Shown: positions 49,886 through 61,924, numbered from the stretch's first letter. The stretch is 64,000 bases of DNA from Infirmifilum sp. NZ (GCF_022693705.1 NZ_CP094288.1:1070443-1134442); one strand, 5' to 3'. The notes: generated from the letters alone by a model not told the origin. Made by a program: numbers and translations.

Positions 49886-49988
49886 TTAGATAACCTGCCT
49901 TAATTGGAGCAGTCACTGTGCTAAGCAACCTACAAGGGAAAGCTAAAAATAGCATTTCTAGCCATAATACTGGTATCGAGTGATTAAG

Positions 49989-50240
49989 ATGGCGGATGAC
50001 ACGCAAAACTGCATGTTAGAGGGATGCACACGTCAAGCAGAAATAATTCTTGAGGTTGGAGGACAGGCTATCTATCTTTGCAGACCCCACTTCACACAGC
50101 TTGTAGCGAGGATGACCAAGGCGGCCGTGCGTAGAGGGTCAATATCTGCCAAAAGTATAAGAGTGGAGAAGGTTGGTGACGGTAAAGTAAAGTTGTCTAT
50201 CAAAAGAGTCAGAAAAGTAGATGTCGGTGAAAAAGGGTAA
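49989..50240 (+). CDS. small cysteine protein, possible zinc finger
   Basis: This 83-residue protein begins at the ATG at 49989. A CATAATACT promoter-like string is centred about 24 bases upstream. The N-terminal half has CMLEGC and, about 20 residues later, YLCRPHF, giving a possible CCCH zinc site. The C-terminal half is very basic (KVKLSIKRVRKV). Nucleic-acid binding is plausible. The family is unknown to me. Confidence 0.65.
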   Translation: MADDTQNCMLEGCTRQAEIILEVGGQAIYLCRPHFTQLVARMTKAAVRRGSISAKSIRVEKVGDGKVKLSIKRVRKVDVGEKG

Positions 50241-50319
50241 GTTTCCTCGGACTATTACTTTGGTGCTGACCTTATAACGGCTTTCAGAAACTGCTTCATG
50301 AGAAGTAATGGGATCAAAA

Positions 50320-50808
50320 TTATATTAAACTCAGTTGCTCATCTAGAAGCTGTTTAAGCTCATCGAACACATCCTTAGAACTTATTATTCCACGTTTAAA
50401 ACTACTCTCCAGATCCTTCAACTTACTTTCGATGTCCTCCTTTGAGATGTCTGGAGGGAGACCTATTCTTCGCATGTGAAGTATAGCCTTGTACACGTTT
50501 CTCTCAAAGGTCAGCCATGTTGTTTCCAGTTCATGTATCATATTGACCGATTCCTCGGAAAGTGCGTTGATCTTCCTCTGAGCCTTTTCCTCGTCGATAA
50601 TCCCTAGATCTGCTTTCACCCTCAGCTCCTCAATCTCCTTCAAGTTAGAGCCTATTCGGGCTTTCAACACGGCTATTTTCTCAGACAGGAGGGGTCTACG
50701 TCTCTCCCACTCGAGCAGGCATCTCTTCACAGTCTCGGTGTACTCGCTCCAAGCCCTGTCAGCATCCTCGAAAAATTGCTCCAGATTCTCGTAGCTGAAC
50801 GAACTCAC
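50320..50808 (-). CDS. coiled-coil protein with short repeat motifs
   Basis: This 162-residue, almost wholly helical, charged protein has no recognised family. Two short segments, KADLGIIDEEKAQRKI and FKRGIISSKDVFDELKQLL, repeat a motif (basic residue-x-G-I-I-S/D-acidic-...-L) seen also in the upstream gene. It overlaps that gene by 4 bases, so the two are probably made together and may interact. Confidence 0.7.
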   Translation of the reverse strand: MSSFSYENLEQFFEDADRAWSEYTETVKRCLLEWERRRPLLSEKIAVLKARIGSNLKEIEELRVKADLGIIDEEKAQRKINALSEESVNMIHELETTWLTFERNVYKAILHMRRIGLPPDISKEDIESKLKDLESSFKRGIISSKDVFDELKQLLDEQLSLI

Positions 50809-51593
50809 TGCTCCTCCACCTCTTCACGTATTTTCTCGAGCCTTTTTAGCTTAGCCTCGAGCTCCGTTTTAACGCTCTTGTAAGCCTCTTCACTTATGCT
50901 ACCCTCCCTATACTTCTGCTCGAGCTTGCTCAAAGCCAACCTGAGCTTGGCTATCTCGGGTTTAACCTCCGCGGCCTTCACGCGCTTGTAATGAGGTATA
51001 ACTAACCTGTCAAGCTCGTCGAGCTTTTTGCGAATCTCTTCCTTTTCAGCAGTTTTCTCGTCGATTTTCTTGTCGAGCTCAGACTTAAGCTCCTCGAACT
51101 GGCTGTCATCTAAGACACCCAGCTTGTGCTTGAGTTCAATGCGCTCCAGCTCGGATATGTACGCTTCGAGAGAGCTATCGATCTCCAAAAGCTCTTTTTC
51201 GAGAGTATCCCGTAGCTCTTCCCAGCTCTCAATGACTTCGCGTGCCGCCTTCTCATACTCTTCCCAGGCTCTAGATAGCTCGGAAGCACGGTTAATCAGG
51301 CTTTCCAGCCTGCTTGAAAGCTCCTCGTAGCGCGGCACCCCAGCTAAGGGCTCGGCCGATACCAAAAGCTGTTGCGGTGGTGCTGTAACCTGCTCGCTAA
51401 CGCTGGGAGCAGGCTTTACCTCCTCTCTCTCAGCTTTCTCTCTCTTAGTCCATTGCACATAGTAGGGGCAGTCCCAGTACTCCATCAAGCATGGCATGAA
51501 GGCTGGATCTACCTCAGCGCCGCCCGCGTACTTACAGTAGAATTTTCCCCTTGCGTCTTTGTAAAGACCTGGACACACTCCACTCGAAGCCAT
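50805..51593 (-). CDS. coiled-coil protein with N-terminal four-cysteine module
   Basis: This 262-residue protein has cysteines at residues 7, 20, 35 and 42 (C-x12-C-x14-C-x6-C-P), suggesting a zinc or iron-sulfur site. From about residue 85 onward it is a long charged coiled coil. It includes KLGVLDDSQFEELKSEL and YREGSISEEAYKSVKTEL, the same short motif as in the next gene. A divergent neighbour at 51766 carries the same four-cysteine module. Function unknown; a scaffold or adaptor is my guess. Confidence 0.72.
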   Translation of the reverse strand: MASSGVCPGLYKDARGKFYCKYAGGAEVDPAFMPCLMEYWDCPYYVQWTKREKAEREEVKPAPSVSEQVTAPPQQLLVSAEPLAGVPRYEELSSRLESLINRASELSRAWEEYEKAAREVIESWEELRDTLEKELLEIDSSLEAYISELERIELKHKLGVLDDSQFEELKSELDKKIDEKTAEKEEIRKKLDELDRLVIPHYKRVKAAEVKPEIAKLRLALSKLEQKYREGSISEEAYKSVKTELEAKLKRLEKIREEVEEQ

Positions 51594-51765
51594 TCAAACT
51601 CGAATTTACACGCAATAAGGGGCGATATATTAGTATTGAATAACTCGCCCGTCATCTCAAGGTATTTTTACTGTATGGCTTCGCCAAAACTCCGAGCCGC
51701 AAGCTTGAGTTATCGCAAAACATTAGGTAACCTACAATAACCCCAGTATAGTCAAGTGATCTGCG

Positions 51766-51990
51766 ATGAGCGGAGAGGGAAACACGTGTAGGTACTTTCG
51801 GCAAACCGCACGGGGATTTCGCTGCGTTTTTATTGGTGTGGCTGAGTGGAGAGCCTTGGGCGAGAAGTACCTGAGCTACTGTAAGTCCGGGGGGTCGGGT
51901 TGCCCTGTACTAGCCTCGGTAAGTAAGAAGCTGGCACTAGGAAATAACTTTAAAAAGGGTGCGTCCAGTGCCTTGTTTAAGGAAGATTGA
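51766..51990 (+). CDS. small four-cysteine protein, paralogue of the module at 51.5 kb
   Basis: This 74-residue protein has Cys8, Cys20, Cys39 and Cys46 (C-x11-C-x18-C-x6-C-P) with an ARGF context between the first two, closely matching the N-terminal module of the divergent coiled-coil gene. Its stop overlaps the start of the large membrane protein gene, suggesting coupled translation. A metal-binding role is likely; the partner is unknown. Confidence 0.7.
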   Translation: MSGEGNTCRYFRQTARGFRCVFIGVAEWRALGEKYLSYCKSGGSGCPVLASVSKKLALGNNFKKGASSALFKED

Positions 51991-53446
51991 CTACGTTTTC
52001 GCCCTTGGTGTGCTTTTGCTGGTAACTGGTCTAGTTGCGAGGCTTTACACGTGGCTGGGACCGAGATTGGACGCGCCCTCACTGCTCCTGATCTTCCCGA
52101 TCATCTACATTCTTCACGCCGTGGCTGAGAGGCGCGGCATAGACGGTGGCGTTGCTCTGCTGGCCCCTTCCTTGGTTGCAGTGCTGGCATCTCCATACGT
52201 GCTCCTCTCAGCTAAAATGCTCGAGGAAGACATCAGGAGTGGTCAGATCGCGTCCCCGTTCCTAAACGATTTCATGGCTAGGGGTGAAGGTTTAACAGTT
52301 CCTTACGTTTTGGCCTTCGCAGTCTTTTTAGCGGCTATGCTACTCGGAAGCATTCTGGTGAGAAACCTGCTAGGGAGTGTTCAGCTCGAGTCGCCTTCAA
52401 ACCCGGTGTTCATGTTAAGCGAGAAGCCGGGTATTCAACGTTGGTCAGCGATAGGCGTACTCGCGGGGGTTTTGGTTGCTGCACTCATCCCCAGCGAGCC
52501 TCATATGTTCGTAATTGCACCACTGTGTGTCTTAATCATGCTTAGTTCAACATTCATTCAAGCCTCTTTGATGTTCTATATTTCCCTTGAGTATTTCCTC
52601 GGTGTTCCTTTTGGGATGGTTGGAGCCCTTACGGCTTTATTTCTCTACTCGTTGGCTGTGAATACGGGAAAAAAGGAGGGCGAGGCGAGCGCAACTCTAC
52701 TGATGACTTCATCCTTTCTCTTAATAATGACGCTGGCATTCTTCATAGTGTTCGGAACGGGCTTCCCGCTCTACATAGCCTTTTTCCTGTTAAACGTTCT
52801 TTTAGTCTCTGCTTTTGTAGTGCAGGTGGAAGGAAGAAGCTTTATTTTAAGTCCTTTTATAGCATCCTATGTAGTTCTACTCGTCTCGTATTCTCTCCCA
52901 GAGCAACTTAGGCTGTTAAGCCTACCTGTTGCCCCCTTCATTATCGCTGCCATTCCCGGGGTCCTCGCGAGCCTTTACTTAAACTTGATCAAGCCTCGAT
53001 ATGAAAGCGACGAGTGCACATTTACCCCGGTAGCCGCCGTAGCTCTACTCTCGCAGCCTCTCGCTTTCGCACTTCTCCAGGCTGAAGCTAGCTCAATACA
53101 GCTCCCTCAGCAGCCCGTTCAGAGTACTCAGGCAAGTTTATTGTTACCAATTCTCGCGCTCCTCGTAACGCTGTTGCAACGGCGTTTTTCAAAGTCCTTG
53201 TTCAACAGAGGCTCCTGGTTGTTTATCCCGGCATCGTTCACTGTATTGCACCCTGCTGGTCTAGCTTTGGCCTCAGCATTATACCAGCTGCTGAGCATTG
53301 ATGGTGTGGTTTTGATGGTGATCTTCTCCGCGGTTGCCTTAGCTCTGAATATCACAGCTTTTCTCAAGGGTGTGTCGCTGCAGGGGTTTAAAATAATGTT
53401 CACTATAGGTATGGGCATTGGCCTAGCTATCCGCGTTATCTTCTAG
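51968..53446 (+). CDS. polytopic membrane protein, unknown family
   Basis: This protein of about 492 residues has roughly 13-14 hydrophobic helices and short loops. The GTG at 51968 has a GGGTG ribosome site 6 bases before it. I see no transporter or enzyme signature. The coupling to the small four-cysteine gene is the only functional hint. Its 3' end overlaps the convergent GTPase gene by 4 bases. Confidence 0.7.
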   Translation: MPCLRKIDYVFALGVLLLVTGLVARLYTWLGPRLDAPSLLLIFPIIYILHAVAERRGIDGGVALLAPSLVAVLASPYVLLSAKMLEEDIRSGQIASPFLNDFMARGEGLTVPYVLAFAVFLAAMLLGSILVRNLLGSVQLESPSNPVFMLSEKPGIQRWSAIGVLAGVLVAALIPSEPHMFVIAPLCVLIMLSSTFIQASLMFYISLEYFLGVPFGMVGALTALFLYSLAVNTGKKEGEASATLLMTSSFLLIMTLAFFIVFGTGFPLYIAFFLLNVLLVSAFVVQVEGRSFILSPFIASYVVLLVSYSLPEQLRLLSLPVAPFIIAAIPGVLASLYLNLIKPRYESDECTFTPVAAVALLSQPLAFALLQAEASSIQLPQQPVQSTQASLLLPILALLVTLLQRRFSKSLFNRGSWLFIPASFTVLHPAGLALASALYQLLSIDGVVLMVIFSAVALALNITAFLKGVSLQGFKIMFTIGMGIGLAIRVIF

Positions 53447-54625: not shown

Positions 54626-54991
54626 TCACTCTCCGTTGCTCTTAATAACGACAATCCCGTTGCTCTTCTCGAGCCTCAGGCGAACTTTTCCAACGGAACA
54701 CGCCACTTCGCCTGAGAATGGTCCGCGTACGGCTGTCGCGTTTATCCGTATCAAGCACATGCTTGAAACTGGAACTCTAGAAACGATCGTGCCGTTCGCT
54801 ATGCAGCCATCAAGGTAGTAGTCACTGTTCACGACAGTTCCATTCGGTGAGTCTAGTAGGAAACATATATCGCGGATGAGAGCAGTGTTAGGGGATTGCC
54901 GAAAGCCATAGAAGTAGTAGAGATTAAGCCAATACGCAAAGACCAAACCCGAAACCAACAGGTGGAGTAGAGCTAGGACTGCTTCATCCAC
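54626..54991 (-). CDS. small membrane-anchored secreted protein (last gene of the appendage-like operon)
   Basis: This 121-residue protein starts with GTG and overlaps the upstream gene by 8 bases. One N-terminal hydrophobic helix (about residues 4-26) is followed by a compact extracytoplasmic domain with three N-x-T/S sequons and four cysteines. This is the architecture of a minor pseudopilin or pilus-associated protein, but no prepilin-peptidase motif is obvious. Unknown family. Confidence 0.65.
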   Translation of the reverse strand: MDEAVLALLHLLVSGLVFAYWLNLYYFYGFRQSPNTALIRDICFLLDSPNGTVVNSDYYLDGCIANGTIVSRVPVSSMCLIRINATAVRGPFSGEVACSVGKVRLRLEKSNGIVVIKSNGE

Positions 54992-55550
54992 CTGGGATCA
55001 CCAGCTTTAGCCCCCACTTGTCGGCCACTACGCACGGCCCAAGTCCCCTCACTGCTAAATCGCCGTTGACATAGTCGTGCGGGCACAGAGGTTGGAGTGT
55101 AATGCTTATTCGTATCGTGTAGTTGTACACGGGCAACTTGAAATACTGGTAAGCGCTCACGGCGTATATTCTGAGTATGCGGCCCGTGAGCTCGTCTACG
55201 CGGAGCCCTACGAGCTTGTAGGTGTAGTTCAATGCGAAAGTATCCTCGCCGAGGCTGGTGCTCACCCTGGCAACGCACAGCAGAGTCCCTCGTTCGTAGT
55301 TAGAAGAGTTCTCGATAACTGAAACCGCGTACGATTTTACCCTAACGTGTTTTGCGAGGGTTTGAGCCCGCGCAAAGAGCATGGCAGCTTTATCCGGACT
55401 CTTGCAAGCCTCACGCGCGGTAATCAGGAGTAGTGCATGAACGTCTTCGCCCTCGTAAATGACCCGGTAAGTTTCCTCCTGATGTAAATTCAATATCAGC
55501 AAGCTCAGGACAGCTACGGCTATCAGAGCGGCACTACCACGCCTACGCAC
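54984..55550 (-). CDS. pseudopilin-like / TadE-TadG-like secreted protein
   Basis: This 188-residue protein begins MRRRGSAALIAVAVLSLLIL, a basic stretch plus a 15-residue helix that resembles the N-termini of Tad-type minor pilins. The rest is an extracytoplasmic domain with several sequons and cysteines. It begins 2 bases after the preceding stop and ends inside the next gene. Inference rests on topology and operon context only. Confidence 0.65.
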   Translation of the reverse strand: MRRRGSAALIAVAVLSLLILNLHQEETYRVIYEGEDVHALLLITAREACKSPDKAAMLFARAQTLAKHVRVKSYAVSVIENSSNYERGTLLCVARVSTSLGEDTFALNYTYKLVGLRVDELTGRILRIYAVSAYQYFKLPVYNYTIRISITLQPLCPHDYVNGDLAVRGLGPCVVADKWGLKLVIPGG

Positions 55551-55552
55551 GG

Positions 55553-55831
55553 CTACCCCCTCCAGGAGAAGGAGTAGGTTCGGAGTTCCTCACCGCACCA
55601 AACAGCTACGAACCCGGTGGTGGCATCAGGAAGGGGGGCTGTAGCGTTAACTTCCCTAAGGTACTCGGTGACATCGCTACAGTTAGAGTGTAGCATAACG
55701 TATGCTGCTATTGCGGCGGCATTTCTCGCGTTTTTAACCTGCACAGAGAGCGGGTGCAGTATAAGTGTAGTAGCCTTACTCAGCGTAAGGAGGACAATGA
55801 CCGCAACCACGGCGGCTTGCACCTCCCTCAT
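55553..55831 (-). CDS. small pseudopilin-like protein
   Basis: This 92-residue protein starts at the ATG at 55831, which overlaps the previous stop by 4 bases. A longer frame upstream is the shadow of the neighbour. A helix at about residues 6-25 (VQAAVVAVIVLLTL) is followed by a short domain with an alanine-rich helix (NARNAAAIAAYV), two cysteines and sequons. The layout is like the neighbouring genes. Confidence 0.62.
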   Translation of the reverse strand: MREVQAAVVAVIVLLTLSKATTLILHPLSVQVKNARNAAAIAAYVMLHSNCSDVTEYLREVNATAPLPDATTGFVAVWCGEELRTYSFSWRG

Positions 55832-56070
55832 GGCTCGACCACCACGATGCTCGAGTGGTTGCGGCACACGGTGATGATGTTGCCGCGCTGCGTTCCGTTG
55901 AGGGTTATGGGCTTCGACGAGTAAACCGTTGTGCACGCTCCGGGGGGTAGCAAGCCCTGAACGTGCACAACGTCGCTGTCTACTGAAGCATCTTGCGCAA
56001 ATACCAGGACGCTAGCAAGTAATAGAACTTCGAAGATTGTTAGAAGAGCCTCCTCGACGCTTTTCAACAC
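55828..56070 (-). CDS. small membrane-anchored protein
   Basis: This 80-residue protein starts with GTG and overlaps its upstream neighbour by 7 bases. It has one N-terminal helix (about residues 8-25) and a short outside domain with two cysteines and two sequons. A family cannot be named. Confidence 0.6.
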   Translation of the reverse strand: MLKSVEEALLTIFEVLLLASVLVFAQDASVDSDVVHVQGLLPPGACTTVYSSKPITLNGTQRGNIITVCRNHSSIVVVEP

Positions 56071-56582
56071 CTCTTCACCTCTATCAAAACCAGCTTTAAG
56101 ACGATAGGCCCATCAAGCGAGAAGAAGGAGCCGCAGACCTCAATCCGTGGATTGTAAATGCGGACTTCCCTTGTCAACTTCGTCAAGCACAGCCTATCAG
56201 TCCAACCGCGCTCAGTTGCGTTAAATATAATCAGAGTGGCGTTTTCGGCGCGGAAAACCGAGTTGAATAAGAGCAGGCATTCATCATTCATCCTCCTGAC
56301 GCTAATCCATGTAGTGTTCAAAGGGGTTGCTACGCAATCCGGGATCATGAGCTCAGGATCTTCAAAGGTCAATAGTTGAAGACCGTTGACGACAACACGG
56401 CACTGTGTGCTGTTTAAATAGATTCGTGAGTTGAAGTCGATGAAATCGGATTGCGTTAGCGTCACGAGGCTAAACGAGTTAAGGTGTGCAATGGGTCTTG
56501 CTGATCGAAGGTGCATGTAAATAGTGGCAAGGATAGAGACAGAAATGGTTACAAGTATCACGATTTTCAAAACATCGCTCAT
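56064..56582 (-). CDS. membrane-anchored secreted protein
   Basis: This 172-residue protein begins at the ATG at 56582 (MSDVLKIVILVTISV...). The frame extends upstream but only as a shadow of the large gene. One N-terminal helix precedes an extracytoplasmic domain with several sequons and paired cysteines. Overlap with the upstream stop is 4 bases, a translational-coupling arrangement. Confidence 0.65.
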   Translation of the reverse strand: MSDVLKIVILVTISVSILATIYMHLRSARPIAHLNSFSLVTLTQSDFIDFNSRIYLNSTQCRVVVNGLQLLTFEDPELMIPDCVATPLNTTWISVRRMNDECLLLFNSVFRAENATLIIFNATERGWTDRLCLTKLTREVRIYNPRIEVCGSFFSLDGPIVLKLVLIEVKRC

Positions 56583-58783
56583 AATCGCTCCCACCACGGA
56601 AAAACGATCACTCGCTTCGTAGGAGCAGGAACGTAGACCACCTCCAGAAAGTGCCCGCTTGTGTCGGGATAGGGTACTTCGGCTACATAGGGGTAAGGCA
56701 CGCACACCTGCCACGCTGCCTGGTTGCTGGCGTTCACGAGTTTTATGCAGAGGTTCCCCATATTCGGTGTCTCATTTACCGCGATCAATTCTTGCCTAAG
56801 CGTAGTATTCACTCCTAGAACCCGAGGTTCTGAGGCTGTTAGAACAAGCCCACTGCCTCCGCTGCGGAAGCTCAGCTCAACTGCGACGGGTAGTAAGAGA
56901 AGTTTTAGCCTTTCTCCGGGAATCTCTAGACGCCCACCCCACGAGGGTGCAAGCTCAATTGACCTAGGAGTGGTCACGTCTTGAAGCTCCTCAAACCTTA
57001 CCTCCAGCACGCCCGCGCTCGCTGTAGCGGAAGACAGTTCTTTTCCATCAAGTAGTGCTGTGATGTTGTAGTTTTCCCAGGAAGGATACGCGTTGAAATG
57101 TATCCTTACTGCGTCCCAGCCGTAATCGATCTCTGTGATTTCTATTCGGGGTGCTATGACCCTGTAGATGTAAATTGAGTTGTTTACTTTGAGGTAGATT
57201 GTTAAATTCGGAGTCTCCGGGGCGGTAAGCGAGAACAGGTAAAATGTCTGGTTACCGATTAGAACGATAGGCAAGGTAGCTGCTGGGAGCCTGCTGGCCT
57301 TCCTGGTTGTCCCGACTTTAGCGGTTTCCCCGAAGGCCGAAAGGACTTTTACCGTGGCGTTTAAGCCCTTAACCGAGTAGATACGCGTGGCGCTTGCATC
57401 CAGCAGGATTACCGTGGCGTTCGTCTCGACAGTATAGATCCCCGGCATTAGTGGGATGAAGTGCGTTGTATTGTGTGGGAGAAAGTCCATGCCAGGTAGA
57501 AGCGCCAGAGCCGCGTTGATGCTCCCGCTCGGTGAGTAGATAGCCGTTAGCCTCAAGCTTGAAATCAGGGAGCCGGACACTGTAGAAGAGTACACTTTGC
57601 CCGACGGTGTGTCCCAGTAGGCGAAGTAGAAGGTCTTTGTGGAGGAGTTGCTCAGCGTCACGGATGCGGTAACGTAGGCAGAGTATCCATAGCCGATCGT
57701 CAGCCTCAGTCTCTCATTGCTCAGCCGGGCGTTTCTCACCGTGAATGAGCCCGACCCGCTGTAAACGAAGCCCGAGTAGTAGAGGTTCCTGCAGGAGCCG
57801 CCCTGCGTGCAGGCGTCCAGCCAGACCCTGACGGCGCCTCCCCGATATGTTATGCTCCAGGAGCCAGAGACGTTGAACTTCCCTGTGTAGTAGTCGCTGG
57901 AGTAGTATACCGCTGAGTAGGCATCGGCGTACTTGTTGCTGACACTTATCGCTGTCCCGCTGGTGGTCAGCGTCAGCACGAGGGACTGAGGAACGGTTTC
58001 GCTGTAGCTTGTCCCCGAGCTGGCCGTAGCACTCTTGGACGCTTGTAAAGAAGTACCAGAGAACGTAAGAGTACCTAAAACAGGGCTACCAGAGACTTGC
58101 AGGCTACCGCTCACCGCCGCACCCTGAGGCAAAGTGAAGTTCACGATCATAGCCGCGACGGTCAAAGTGTAAGTTGTCGGCGGTGGACTGCCACCCGCAC
58201 TGCTGTAAGTGAAGTGAATGTCGTTCTGGACAAGCTTCCCTGTGCCCCAGTAAAGCTCGAAGTGGAGGCTGAAAGATGACCTGCTTGAACCCACCCTGAA
58301 AAGGTAGTAGCCGCTGTCCAGTGTTCTTAAGCTCTTATCGTGCGCGTCGTAAACGCCTCCAAAGGACGCCATGAAAGGAAAGCTCTTGCTCACTGTAACC
58401 GGAGACGGGCTCAATATGTTCTTGCAAACCAAGTTGCCGCTCGAATCGTAGTAGCACTCGTCAAGCTTTACAGAGGAGGTCCCAGAATACGAGTGAGTGC
58501 CATGACCAGAACCGCTCGAAGGGGAAAACGATACTTGGACGTTGTTTATGAAGTACTCCCAGTTTATGCTCTGAAAGCTGGTCAGCTTCGAGCAAGACAT
58601 GCTGCACGTCCAATCCTGCCTCGCCCCTACCCCCTTATCGTCGGTGAGCCAATCGCTCGAACAGGCAATTCCCCCATCAGGACCAGTTTGGCAAGAGCAG
58701 CCGGGGTTTCCCGAAAACCTGCCCGCCAAAAGAAGCGTAGTCAGTAGAAAAATTAGGAAGAGTAACTCAGACCTCGACTTCAA
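56579..58783 (-). CDS. large secreted beta-rich surface protein
   Basis: This protein has about 734 residues from a TTG at 58783, where GGTGGTG supplies a ribosome site; GTG 58810 and ATG 58804 are alternatives lying in the upstream gene. A signal segment (LLFLIFLLTTLLLA) leads to a Ser/Thr/Gly/Tyr-rich beta structure. Several cysteine pairs occur in the N-terminal third (CSCQTG, CYYD...VC, CTQGGSC), and many sequons follow. A C-terminal anchor is not obvious. It could be an adhesin, pilus tip or S-layer-associated protein. Confidence 0.72.
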   Translation of the reverse strand: MKSRSELLFLIFLLTTLLLAGRFSGNPGCSCQTGPDGGIACSSDWLTDDKGVGARQDWTCSMSCSKLTSFQSINWEYFINNVQVSFSPSSGSGHGTHSYSGTSSVKLDECYYDSSGNLVCKNILSPSPVTVSKSFPFMASFGGVYDAHDKSLRTLDSGYYLFRVGSSRSSFSLHFELYWGTGKLVQNDIHFTYSSAGGSPPPTTYTLTVAAMIVNFTLPQGAAVSGSLQVSGSPVLGTLTFSGTSLQASKSATASSGTSYSETVPQSLVLTLTTSGTAISVSNKYADAYSAVYYSSDYYTGKFNVSGSWSITYRGGAVRVWLDACTQGGSCRNLYYSGFVYSGSGSFTVRNARLSNERLRLTIGYGYSAYVTASVTLSNSSTKTFYFAYWDTPSGKVYSSTVSGSLISSLRLTAIYSPSGSINAALALLPGMDFLPHNTTHFIPLMPGIYTVETNATVILLDASATRIYSVKGLNATVKVLSAFGETAKVGTTRKASRLPAATLPIVLIGNQTFYLFSLTAPETPNLTIYLKVNNSIYIYRVIAPRIEITEIDYGWDAVRIHFNAYPSWENYNITALLDGKELSSATASAGVLEVRFEELQDVTTPRSIELAPSWGGRLEIPGERLKLLLLPVAVELSFRSGGSGLVLTASEPRVLGVNTTLRQELIAVNETPNMGNLCIKLVNASNQAAWQVCVPYPYVAEVPYPDTSGHFLEVVYVPAPTKRVIVFPWWERL

Positions 58784-60188
58784 CCTGCACCACCACCTCC
58801 CCATAGACATTCACCTCTAACCAGTAAGGCTCCACGCCCTCGAATGTTCTCGAACCAGGACCATATCCCGCGACGGCGTTTCCACAACCATAGCATACTC
58901 CGGGAGGTCTCTGCCAGCTTACTGTAAGGTCGCTCGGGTCTATGAGCTTCTTCTCGAAGATTATGGTTGCTGATCCCTCGTGAGGCAGCGGAAAGCCCTT
59001 GGAGAAGTAGACCTCATCGTTCCTAACAACGACGCATACATCCTGCGACATGTACCCGCCCATGAAGGGCTTCGCCTTCACCTTGAGAACCCTCACCGTG
59101 ACCCAAGTCCAGTTCGTCGGGATCTGCAGGTAGAAGAGGGCTTGATCCCCCCACAGGCGCCATGTCGCGTTGCCCAAGTACTCGTAGTTCCCGATGAACG
59201 GTATGATCATGTACCTGTCCCCGGGGATCAGCTTGGCTGGAGCTAGCCTGCCGTTGACGTAAACCTCGCCCTCGATCACCCTGTGCTCCCGCGGCAGGAG
59301 GAGGGCGTTGAGCCTCAGCACCCCTCCCCTCACAGCCCTGTAGACCATGTACCTCCCGAAGGGGTACACGCCTGTAGGAGTCGTCCAGTTCACGGGGCAG
59401 ATTAGGTGCGTGTCGTTGAAGCTGAAGCAGCCCCTGTCATCGCCCCCGTGAGCCTCGGCAACGATGGTCGAGTTGGGGGGAACCCTCAGCTCGAAGTCCC
59501 CGCTGTAGAGCGAGCCGTTCACGCTTACCGGAACGACGACGTTTCTGAACTCCAGCACGTAGAGCGTTGCGCCCTCAGTGCTGACCACCGCGTCCTCAGA
59601 AAAAGTCAGCGTCGCGTTCAGCCGGAACTCCTCCGTAACATTGCCCCTCACCACCCTGATTTTATCGGAGCAAAGGACCGTGTAGTTGCCGGCGTCGGCG
59701 CACGCTCTGACGAAGCTGAGCGTGGAGTTAAACTTCACCCTGAAGATAGTCTCGCTATTTATGACAGAGCGGTTTACCAGCAGTGGGTAGTTAGCTTTGA
59801 TGGTGACACTTGCATAGGCTTTTCGGTAACGTAGAAACGTCGTAGTGTTCCTGCCCACCTGAATTGCAACAGATGAATTTACAGGATCATAGATCCCTGT
59901 AGGGAGTGGTTCGACGACAAGGGTAGTATTGCACTTGGTTTTTAATGTTACCGGAAGTTTGTACAAACTTCGGTTCACTACTACACTGGCATTCTCGATG
60001 TTAGCATACAGTATCAGCTGGCACGAAACGCTTGAGGATTGATTTCGGGGAGTTATACTACCGCTAAGGCTTTCCGGAGAGTTCAAAGGAGGCTGCTGCC
60101 TCGAATGTATCGTAGATAGTGTAATTAGTGCTGTAAGGAAAAATACCAGCGTGGCCGCAAATACGAGTAGTTTCTTCCTAAGCTGCAT
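58767..60188 (-). CDS. secreted, heavily sequon-rich surface protein (first gene of the operon)
   Basis: This 473-residue protein starts with ATG. A helix at about residues 7-25 is a signal or anchor. I count at least 17 N-x-S/T sequons, so N-glycosylation should be dense. There are about ten cysteines, including a CYGCGN near the end. No family is recognised. It overlaps the next gene by 17 bases. It heads the seven-gene minus-strand operon; a TTTCATATCC string about 28 bases upstream may be its promoter. Confidence 0.72.
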   Translation of the reverse strand: MQLRKKLLVFAATLVFFLTALITLSTIHSRQQPPLNSPESLSGSITPRNQSSSVSCQLILYANIENASVVVNRSLYKLPVTLKTKCNTTLVVEPLPTGIYDPVNSSVAIQVGRNTTTFLRYRKAYASVTIKANYPLLVNRSVINSETIFRVKFNSTLSFVRACADAGNYTVLCSDKIRVVRGNVTEEFRLNATLTFSEDAVVSTEGATLYVLEFRNVVVPVSVNGSLYSGDFELRVPPNSTIVAEAHGGDDRGCFSFNDTHLICPVNWTTPTGVYPFGRYMVYRAVRGGVLRLNALLLPREHRVIEGEVYVNGRLAPAKLIPGDRYMIIPFIGNYEYLGNATWRLWGDQALFYLQIPTNWTWVTVRVLKVKAKPFMGGYMSQDVCVVVRNDEVYFSKGFPLPHEGSATIIFEKKLIDPSDLTVSWQRPPGVCYGCGNAVAGYGPGSRTFEGVEPYWLEVNVYGEVVVQVEVEV

Positions 60189-60249
60189 CGCTTACCGCAC
60201 GCTCTCCGGATATGAAACAGCTCCAAAGGAGAACTCTTCTGTCTCCGTC

Positions 60250-60258
60250 TTATAAACG
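60250..60258 (+). promoter_or_regulatory. TATA-like promoter of the pilin-like operon
   Basis: TTATAAACG is centred about 34 bases before the GTG at 60287. A GGTGA ribosome site 6 bases before the start implies a short leader. The divergent minus-strand operon begins 61 bases away, so the two could be co-regulated. Confidence 0.5.
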
Positions 60259-60286
60259 AGGCCATTATGCCTCTGGGTGAGAAAAC

Positions 60287-60685
60287 GTGAGCGAAGAAGT
60301 CGGTAGAAGCATCATGGTCATAATCACCCTAGCCGTCGTCTCTCTTATAGGCTACTTCATCTACTCCGTTGCCTCTGCGACCACGAGCCGCCCCGTTCTG
60401 GTTCAAGCGGGCGATGCTGTTCTCACCTCTACGGGTAACAGCTATACTGTTACGCTATGGCTCCAAAACGTTGGAACCTCGACGGCAGATCTCTCAAATG
60501 CTAACCTCACGATCACGACGTACAACCTAAGAGCGCCGTTAACCTGCAATCCTAGAACTGTTGCAGCGGGGACCACGAGCACTTGCACCGCCACCTTCTC
60601 AACGACCGTTCAGATCACGAGTGCTGTAACAGGGTACATCGTAACCAACTACGGTGTATACAAGGTTTCAATCGTAAGAGGATAA
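60287..60685 (+). CDS. pilin-like / archaellum-stator-like secreted protein
   Basis: This 132-residue protein has a short polar N-terminus (MSEEVGRSI), a hydrophobic helix (about residues 9-30) and a beta-sandwich-like domain rich in Thr, Ser and Val. It has two cysteines near the end. The plan is that of archaeal type IV pilins and FlaF/FlaG-type proteins, with possible peptidase cleavage after the basic-Gly/Arg stretch. It is followed 5 bases later by a polytopic protein. Tentative. Confidence 0.6.
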   Translation: MSEEVGRSIMVIITLAVVSLIGYFIYSVASATTSRPVLVQAGDAVLTSTGNSYTVTLWLQNVGTSTADLSNANLTITTYNLRAPLTCNPRTVAAGTTSTCTATFSTTVQITSAVTGYIVTNYGVYKVSIVRG

Positions 60686-60690
60686 AAAAG

Positions 60691-61791
60691 ATGGCTGAGC
60701 TAGGTGAGCTCGAAGTCCTATTTCTACTCTCCTTCACGGAGGCTCCTCCAAGCCACGTCCTGGCATGGCTGGAAAGTAGAGGAATATCCTACAGGCTGTC
60801 TGACGAGACGAGAAGAGTCATCGTGGAGGACGAGAAAGCTGGGTCAAGGGTAGGCATACGCACGTCGCTCGAGGGAGCTATCAGAGAATTAGAGTTCAGG
60901 CTCGAGTCGTTTTCATCGCGTGTTGACACGCTTGGGGAGGTTTTCAACATCACACTTCTTGTGGCCCCGGTCATGCTATACTCAATAGGCTTTTTTAGAC
61001 CTGGAGTTGTCCAGGGAACCCTGCCACTCCTCCTAGTCCTAAACGCTGTCCTCGTAGTACTCTACAGGGACCTGCATCCGAGGGTGTTGAGCTTACCCAG
61101 GAGCTTGAAACTGGCAACAGCTCCATTACTCATAAGCGCAACGTCGGTGGCGGTACTATTGTATAGAGGTGTTGAAACCGCGCTGGCGGTGCAGGCTATC
61201 TCGTGCCTACCACTGGCTATCCTAGCCGCTAGGGTGTTGAAAACAGTGGAGAATGAACTTAAAGAAAACAGGGAGATACTCGTTCGTTCGCTGCAGTCCC
61301 CAGGGCACGTTTTTCGGGCAGTTTCACCCGAAGCTCTTCTGGCAGAGACGGCTTTGGGCTTAAGCCGAAGCATTAGGCTAACGGTCTACTTCTCTTCCGT
61401 ATGGGGCATCGAAGACCCCAGTCTTTTGCTATTAACTTATGAGAAAATTCATCGTTTTCACAGAAACTTGGTCAGGAAAGGGTTCACAAGCGCGGCGCTT
61501 AACCTCGTAACTTTGTTCCTCCTAGGCTTCGCCTCAGCGATAGTTAAGAGCATCTTCAATAGGTTACCGATGGAGAGCGTTGTTCAGTGGGTGCCGGTGG
61601 AGGATACACATGGAGTTCAGTTTTCAATAGACATGTACTTGCTGGCCTCAGTCGCCGTGTACTCAGTAGGGCTAAGCGTCTTATCAACCGGATCGCCGGC
61701 TTTCACCGCTCTCTGGTTGCCAATAGCCTCACTGGCAATAACTTTAGGTAGCTTTTTTGGGGGCGCCTTGCTCGGTGGGGGGAATGTCTAA
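60691..61791 (+). CDS. polytopic membrane protein, possible pilus platform (TadC/FlaJ-like)
   Basis: This 366-residue protein begins at the ATG at 60691; the longer frame is antisense-like sequence within the pilin-like gene. An N-terminal soluble domain of about 75 residues is followed by four helices (about 78-175), a cytoplasmic helical part (about 180-265), then three more helices. The helix-loop-helix pattern with a cytoplasmic bundle resembles type II secretion F/FlaJ/TadC platforms, but I see no diagnostic motif. Position next to a pilin-like gene supports it. Confidence 0.55.
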   Translation: MAELGELEVLFLLSFTEAPPSHVLAWLESRGISYRLSDETRRVIVEDEKAGSRVGIRTSLEGAIRELEFRLESFSSRVDTLGEVFNITLLVAPVMLYSIGFFRPGVVQGTLPLLLVLNAVLVVLYRDLHPRVLSLPRSLKLATAPLLISATSVAVLLYRGVETALAVQAISCLPLAILAARVLKTVENELKENREILVRSLQSPGHVFRAVSPEALLAETALGLSRSIRLTVYFSSVWGIEDPSLLLLTYEKIHRFHRNLVRKGFTSAALNLVTLFLLGFASAIVKSIFNRLPMESVVQWVPVEDTHGVQFSIDMYLLASVAVYSVGLSVLSTGSPAFTALWLPIASLAITLGSFFGGALLGGGNV

Positions 61792-61924
61792 GGCCATCTA
61801 CGCGCTTATACTGCTCGTTGCGCTTATACTCTTGCTCATGGCTTTAAATCCTGCTCAGATGAGCTTATCCACAAAAAGTGTATACATCGCTGAGAATGGC
61901 AAGTTAATCATTATAAGCACATAG
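61784..61924 (+). CDS. 46-residue membrane peptide
   Basis: This is a small frame with ATG at 61784, a GGTGGGGGG ribosome site just before it, and an 8-base overlap with the upstream stop. The product has one strong helix (MSKAIYALILLVALILLLMAL...) followed by about 24 polar residues ending KLIIIST. Start context, overlap and single-helix plan all fit a genuine small gene of the operon. It could be an extra pilin-like subunit. Confidence 0.55.
   Translation: MSKAIYALILLVALILLLMALNPAQMSLSTKSVYIAENGKLIIIST

Follow-up and report, generated by a model that had tools for sequence, protein, structure and literature searches.

Among archaeal type IV pilus systems, the survey of Makarova 2016 (PMC4858521) describes a subclade, 4G, in Pyrobaculum and Thermoproteus. 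The same survey describes an orphan ATPase clade, found in two species of Thermofilum, and ties it tentatively to pilin loci that have no ATPase of their own and are marked by the minor pilin arCOG05475. Our literature search found no experimental account of Thermofilum pili. The stretch of DNA analysed here, called the window, comprises 64,000 nucleotides (G000:C1:1070443-1134442) of the complete 1.83-Mb chromosome of a Thermofilum-type archaeal host. It contains a set of pilin, platform and surface-protein genes, called locus A, while a MinD/ATPase motor set beyond the window is called locus B. We consider it very probable that locus A is the structural half of a Thermofilales-specific assembly system of the type IV pilus type. 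A preliminary description of the window had proposed a lineage-specific pilus locus with a row of minor-pilin-like genes, and this reading is now backed by the fold and profiles of the pilin, by the platform profiles and by the co-occurrence with the MinD and ATPase genes.

The resemblance to 4G is close in layout. The component set of 4G, that is, MinD, one TadC of ~400 aa, a PilA-type pilin, two large secreted proteins and several cysteine-bearing minor pilins, is present here, together with the secretion ATPase and a protein of ~110 aa, and the gene order is near-identical. Loci of the 4G type were located in Pyrobaculum-type genomes (L175, L176, L178, L179) via MinD. The Pyrobaculum ATPases that match best are not those of 4G and were set aside, being either of the 4E type, with two TadC genes, or of the 4D type, where the neighbour is a transcription-factor-like gene. 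In contrast to the layout, the proteins themselves differ: TadC and the pilins reach less than 2% in hhalign against those of Pyrobaculum 4G (arCOG05611/05612), the minor pilins are also without profile similarity, and the Thermofilales ATPases have ~400 aa compared to ~510 aa in 4G. The 16 Thermofilales sequences in an ATPase tree of 35 form one clade (support 99/99) apart from 4G, a placement that is provisional and involves long branches. Because the layout matches while the platform, pilins and minor pilins show no detectable relationship and the ATPases are separate, we do not claim that the system is 4G. Judged from sequence, it is a lineage of archaeal type IV pili specific to the Thermofilales and would work like 4G. 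There is also a likeness to the orphan ATPase clade, in that T. uzonense (G026) and G022, which we take to be T. pendens Hrk5, carry both the ATPase and the locus of the present system.

The CpaF-like ATPase and the TadZ-like MinD protein are likenesses to the Tad/Epd systems. Tad has, however, TadB in addition to TadC, whereas here there is one platform gene, for 366-411 aa, per locus. The N-termini of the surface proteins had been said to recall TadE/F/G; the topology is indeed alike, but no TadE/F model of Pfam or NCBIfam matches any product, and a TadG match was not found in these libraries either. The platform is furthermore a distant relative of BasF and UpsF, both of greater length (NCBIfam models of 656 and 484 positions, respectively), and the Bas locus L180 differs in being without a comparable row of overlapping minor-pilin genes.

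Locus A consists of seven minus-strand genes, called m1 to m7, which are divergent from three plus-strand genes. The latter, announced as genes for a pilin-like protein, a polytopic protein and a 46-aa peptide, are present at 60287-60685, 60691-61791 and 61784-61924, respectively. The 98 bp between the two sets (60189-60286, not assigned to a strand) are a candidate divergent promoter region; a TTATAAA-like TATA motif lies near 60250, and the region is weakly conserved between species. All ten products stay below the Pfam cut-offs, and NCBIfam gave one useful lead among them, UpsF for the polytopic protein (2.8e-4). At 49980-53446, locus A is flanked by genes for a small cysteine-containing protein, a coiled-coil pair, a cysteine-rich protein and a polytopic protein of ~15 helices.

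The pilin candidate (60287-60685, plus strand, 132 aa) was predicted to have an N-terminal helix and a beta-sandwich, as expected of an archaeal type IV pilus subunit. The profile searches proposed as a check of the preliminary description have been run, and the pilin profile reaches FlaG (8.8e-6) and the archaeal pilin 6w8u (0.0034) in the PDB. In a Foldseek search with the single-sequence structure model (pLDDT 84.6), the best matches were the archaellum protein FlaG (5tuh) and the flagellar-like pilus of P. calidifontis (8fk7), with a probability of 1.00 and an E-value of only ~1e-3. The N-terminus in the window, MSEEVGRSIMV, is without a clear class III cleavage site; the counterparts in other genera have leaders of the RKGG- or RRRG-type. 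The pilin is among the best-kept parts of the locus, with identities of 100, 76, 70 and 56% in G023, G021, G026 and G022, where G023 is of the same species as the window strain and is named Thermofilum sp. NZ13.

The polytopic protein (60691-61791, plus strand, 366 aa) was read as a single inner-membrane platform of the TadC/FlaJ type, a component that archaeal type IV pili also share, and here the support is at the profile level only. Apart from the UpsF lead, the platform-family profile has its best match outside its own family in BasF (2.4e-8; identity confirmed by NCBIfam), followed by T2SSF/UpsF-type proteins (2.9e-6 and 1e-4), and these links bear out the platform assignment. Pfam T2SSF does not match the protein. 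A direct HH comparison with short TadC proteins gave 6%, too weak to be used, and was dropped in favour of the profile searches; a match of the profile in G269 (4.3e-5) was also discarded, since it is weak and the protein is not polytopic. An AlphaFold2 model from two sequences has a pLDDT of 39.7. In a search of the class, the family was found at E < 1e-40 in 20 of the 21 genomes of the order, and a further class member, G034, has a match at 1e-40 and a similar gene set. Matches below 1e-40 are confined to the order Thermofilales in a sample of 250 genomes of the phylum. Downstream, on the same strand, lies the gene for the 46-aa membrane peptide with a single helix (61784-61924), whose positional counterparts in other genera mostly have 100-113 aa.

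The minus-strand genes were said to overlap or abut at every junction, and this agrees with the open reading frames. The overlap of m1 and m2 is 17 bases if m2 starts at TTG 58783 and 44 bases if it starts at ATG 58810. It is followed by overlaps of 4 bases (m2/m3, with m3 starting at ATG 56582), 7 bases (m3/m4) and 4 bases (m4/m5, with m5 starting at ATG 55831), a gap of 2 bases (m5/m6) and an overlap of 8 bases (m6/m7). The 7-, 4- and 8-base overlaps are identical in two related species (L027, L028). As had also been described, each of the seven products has one predicted hydrophobic helix near its N-terminus, and the set is rich in cysteines (2-12 per protein) and in sequons; 44 sequons were counted after residue 20, compared to ~15 in composition-preserving shuffles, a three-fold excess, and the cytoplasmic neighbour at 53443 has none by the same count.

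Two of the products are large. The m1 gene (58767-60188) encodes a secreted or anchored protein of 473 aa with 17 sequons, 9 cysteines and a hypervariable C-terminal third, and m2 (56579-58810) a secreted protein of 743 aa with 13 sequons and 12 cysteines, whose N-terminal ~200 aa are hypervariable. The remaining five are minor-pilin-like: m3 (56064-56582; a longer reading frame starts at 56714), m4 (55828-56070, 80 aa), m5 (55553-55831, 92 aa; longer reading frame from 55936), m6 (54984-55550, 188 aa) and m7 (54626-54991, 121 aa). Against their positional counterparts in other genera, hhalign gave 60% for m3, 64% for m4, 74% for m6 and 96% for m7. For m5, which is kept in the genus, there was no clear best match, and the tie to other genera is one of position only. 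The N-terminus of m6, RRRG-SAALIAVAV, is class III-like, and its positional counterpart begins with MNRKGQ. The minor-pilin profiles reach no known structure or family, the PDB profile searches yielding nothing usable. Separately, a search of a viral fold library gave generic matches only.

The size of m1 and m2 has a bearing on another reading, in which the locus encodes a bindosome- or pseudopilus-like device, that is, a short surface complex that shows binding proteins for sugar or peptide capture, with m1 and m2 as the substrate-binding proteins. The large secreted proteins do outweigh the one small pilin gene, and the platform has its closest outside relative in a bindosome, but neither m1 nor m2 contains a solute-binding-protein domain (Pfam, NCBIfam), and the closest likenesses of the pilin model are to FlaG and to a genuine pilus subunit. 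We regard such a device as unlikely.

That neither a secretion ATPase nor a prepilin peptidase lies in the window had been pointed out correctly; both are found elsewhere in the genome. The motor is 27 kb past the window end (C1:1160175-1162383), where genes for two ATPases, one MinD-like and one FlaI/CpaF-like, and for a protein of 114 aa are found; genes for membrane proteins of 164, 259 and 805 aa are divergent from these. The ATPase (G000:C1:1161229-1162383) scores 37.3 bits with PF00437, for a cut-off of 24.9, and its profile has its best matches in FlaI (3.9e-22) and CpaF (1.3e-20). The Walker A, catalytic Glu and His motifs are kept in 13 aligned sequences. Locus B thus supplies, from outside the window, the T2SSE/VirB11-family secretion ATPase of an archaeal type IV pilus, and an A24 prepilin peptidase, likewise part of such systems, has one match in the genome (G000:C1:1317179, 36.8 bits, 6.4e-9). 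The host genome also contains two further type IV pilus ATPase/TadC sets (L022:5728-9607 and L023:5388-8692) that could share subunits with locus A; TadC is long in one of them, and the other has two short TadCs.

With an assembly machine of this kind, a competence-type pilus for DNA uptake or DNA exchange has to be weighed as well, as DNA uptake is done elsewhere by type IV filament machines (Denise 2019, PMC6668835). However, the host genome has no match to the ComEC family, whereas 10 of 14 control genomes have one, and we consider this function very improbable.

The preliminary description had made its case depend on conserved co-occurrence and order, and both were found, the block being syntenic in four more members of the genus (G023, G021, G026 and G022) and kept, by profile, in other genera. 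In the latter, pairwise similarity is nearly nil, and the best hhalign match of nearly every family is nevertheless its positional counterpart; the values are 99.7% for TadC, 92% for the pilin, 44% for m2 and only 2.4% for m1, and profile searches yield homologs of m1 and m7. Since order and families are kept across genomes, locus A is not a chance assembly. This bears on the reading of the block as an S-layer or sheath cassette, in which m1-m7 would be surface-layer glycoproteins that are adjacent to the pilin and TadC genes by chance. The wealth of sequons and cysteines and the size of m2 would fit such a cassette. The pilin, TadC, small-peptide and m-genes, however, occur in the same order in several genera, beside MinD and the ATPase, and two large genes followed by five small single-helix genes have the anatomy of a pilus locus, which makes this reading extremely improbable, the least probable of those considered.

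In most other genera of the order, the motor and platform genes adjoin. In L032 and L035, pilin, TadC and small peptide are directly preceded by genes for a MinD-like ATPase, a protein of ~100 aa and a secretion ATPase of ~400 aa; L033 and L034 have the layout of L032 from MinD to the small peptide, except that no ~100-aa gene is called. The five other genes adjoin in L099 as well, and identical or related arrangements are present in L099-L106. In G004 a single cluster (L032) unites motor (MinD and ATPase), platform (TadC), pilin and m-type genes, and homologs of the 259- and 164-aa proteins are present there too. The split into loci A and B is seen also in G023, G021, G026 and G022, with the halves ~28-57 kb apart in the genus. 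Locus A and its cognate ATPase co-occur perfectly, both being present in five genomes of the genus and neither in two; these two hold a paralogous system (L102, L106). In G022, homologs of the genes at 49980-53446 of the window flank locus B and not locus A, and because the flanking genes of locus A are thus found at locus B, the two loci were probably neighbours before a rearrangement.

The paralogous system, called type Y, consists of MinD, ATPase, tandem pilins, TadC and m1-like secreted proteins and was observed at L101 (G026), L102 (G025), L106 (G024) and G023:C18. In G025 it adjoins the TopoVI genes, the site of type X in the window. The m1 profile matches type Y proteins (L106, 9.5e-22) and L030 (1.9e-5). 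In a different type IV pilus-like locus (L162 and L163, in G045 and G044), three MinD/ParA-like ATPases adjoin a candidate ATPase with a Walker A motif, and a pilin-like gene and one for a polytopic TadC-like protein are also present.

In the mechanism that we propose, the 60287 product would be the filament subunit, and a hexamer of the FlaI/CpaF-like ATPase of locus B would extract it from the membrane at the platform encoded by 60691; that the product forms a filament is itself inferred. The MinD/TadZ-like ATPase of locus B would probably place or regulate the machine. Priming or capping of the filament may fall to the minor-pilin-like proteins m3-m7, which may also carry the two large glycoproteins. 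Exposed at the surface, and most likely located at the tip, m1 and m2 would then serve in adhesion or recognition. The tip position and an adhesive function are suggested by analogy and by the variability of these two proteins.

This variability appears in a comparison of two strains, the window strain and NZ13, from which the case for a variable tip is drawn. A segment across the m1/m2 junction (58210-59231, minus strand) is hypervariable between these strains of the same species, with a protein identity of ~25-70% over the C-terminal third of m1 and the N-terminal ~200 residues of m2. Elsewhere in m1 and m2 the identity is mostly 80-98%, and it is 96% for the platform and complete for the pilin. 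NZ13 has, in addition, a second set of m1-, m2- and m7-like genes (L183:7149-10507), which is compact, on the opposite strand and ~5 kb beyond m7, with profile E-values of 1e-37, 1e-35 and 2e-6, respectively. That these three of the seven genes were duplicated together suggests that m1, m2 and m7 form one sub-complex, and the hypervariable segment and the second cassette together suggest a swappable pilus tip. One can speculate further that m1, m2 and m7 are a detachable recognition head at the tip, diversified through rapid divergence of the m1/m2 junction and through swaps with the nearby spare cassette; we put this forward as a doubtful but possible extension. If true, the tip of this archaeal pilus would vary by means of cassettes, and viruses or partner recognition might drive the process.

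Thermoproteota hold many fast-evolving type IV pilus systems, parts of which escape annotation, and the present case shows how the motor of such a machine can be overlooked in a view limited to one window. In Thermofilum, orphan pilin and platform genes are joined here to a distant motor; the resulting parts list of ~15 genes is near-complete, and a variable module at the tip is suggested. A contact organelle would be relevant to the interactions of the filamentous Thermofilum species, of which T. uzonense depends for growth on culture filtrate from other archaea (PMC4673724).
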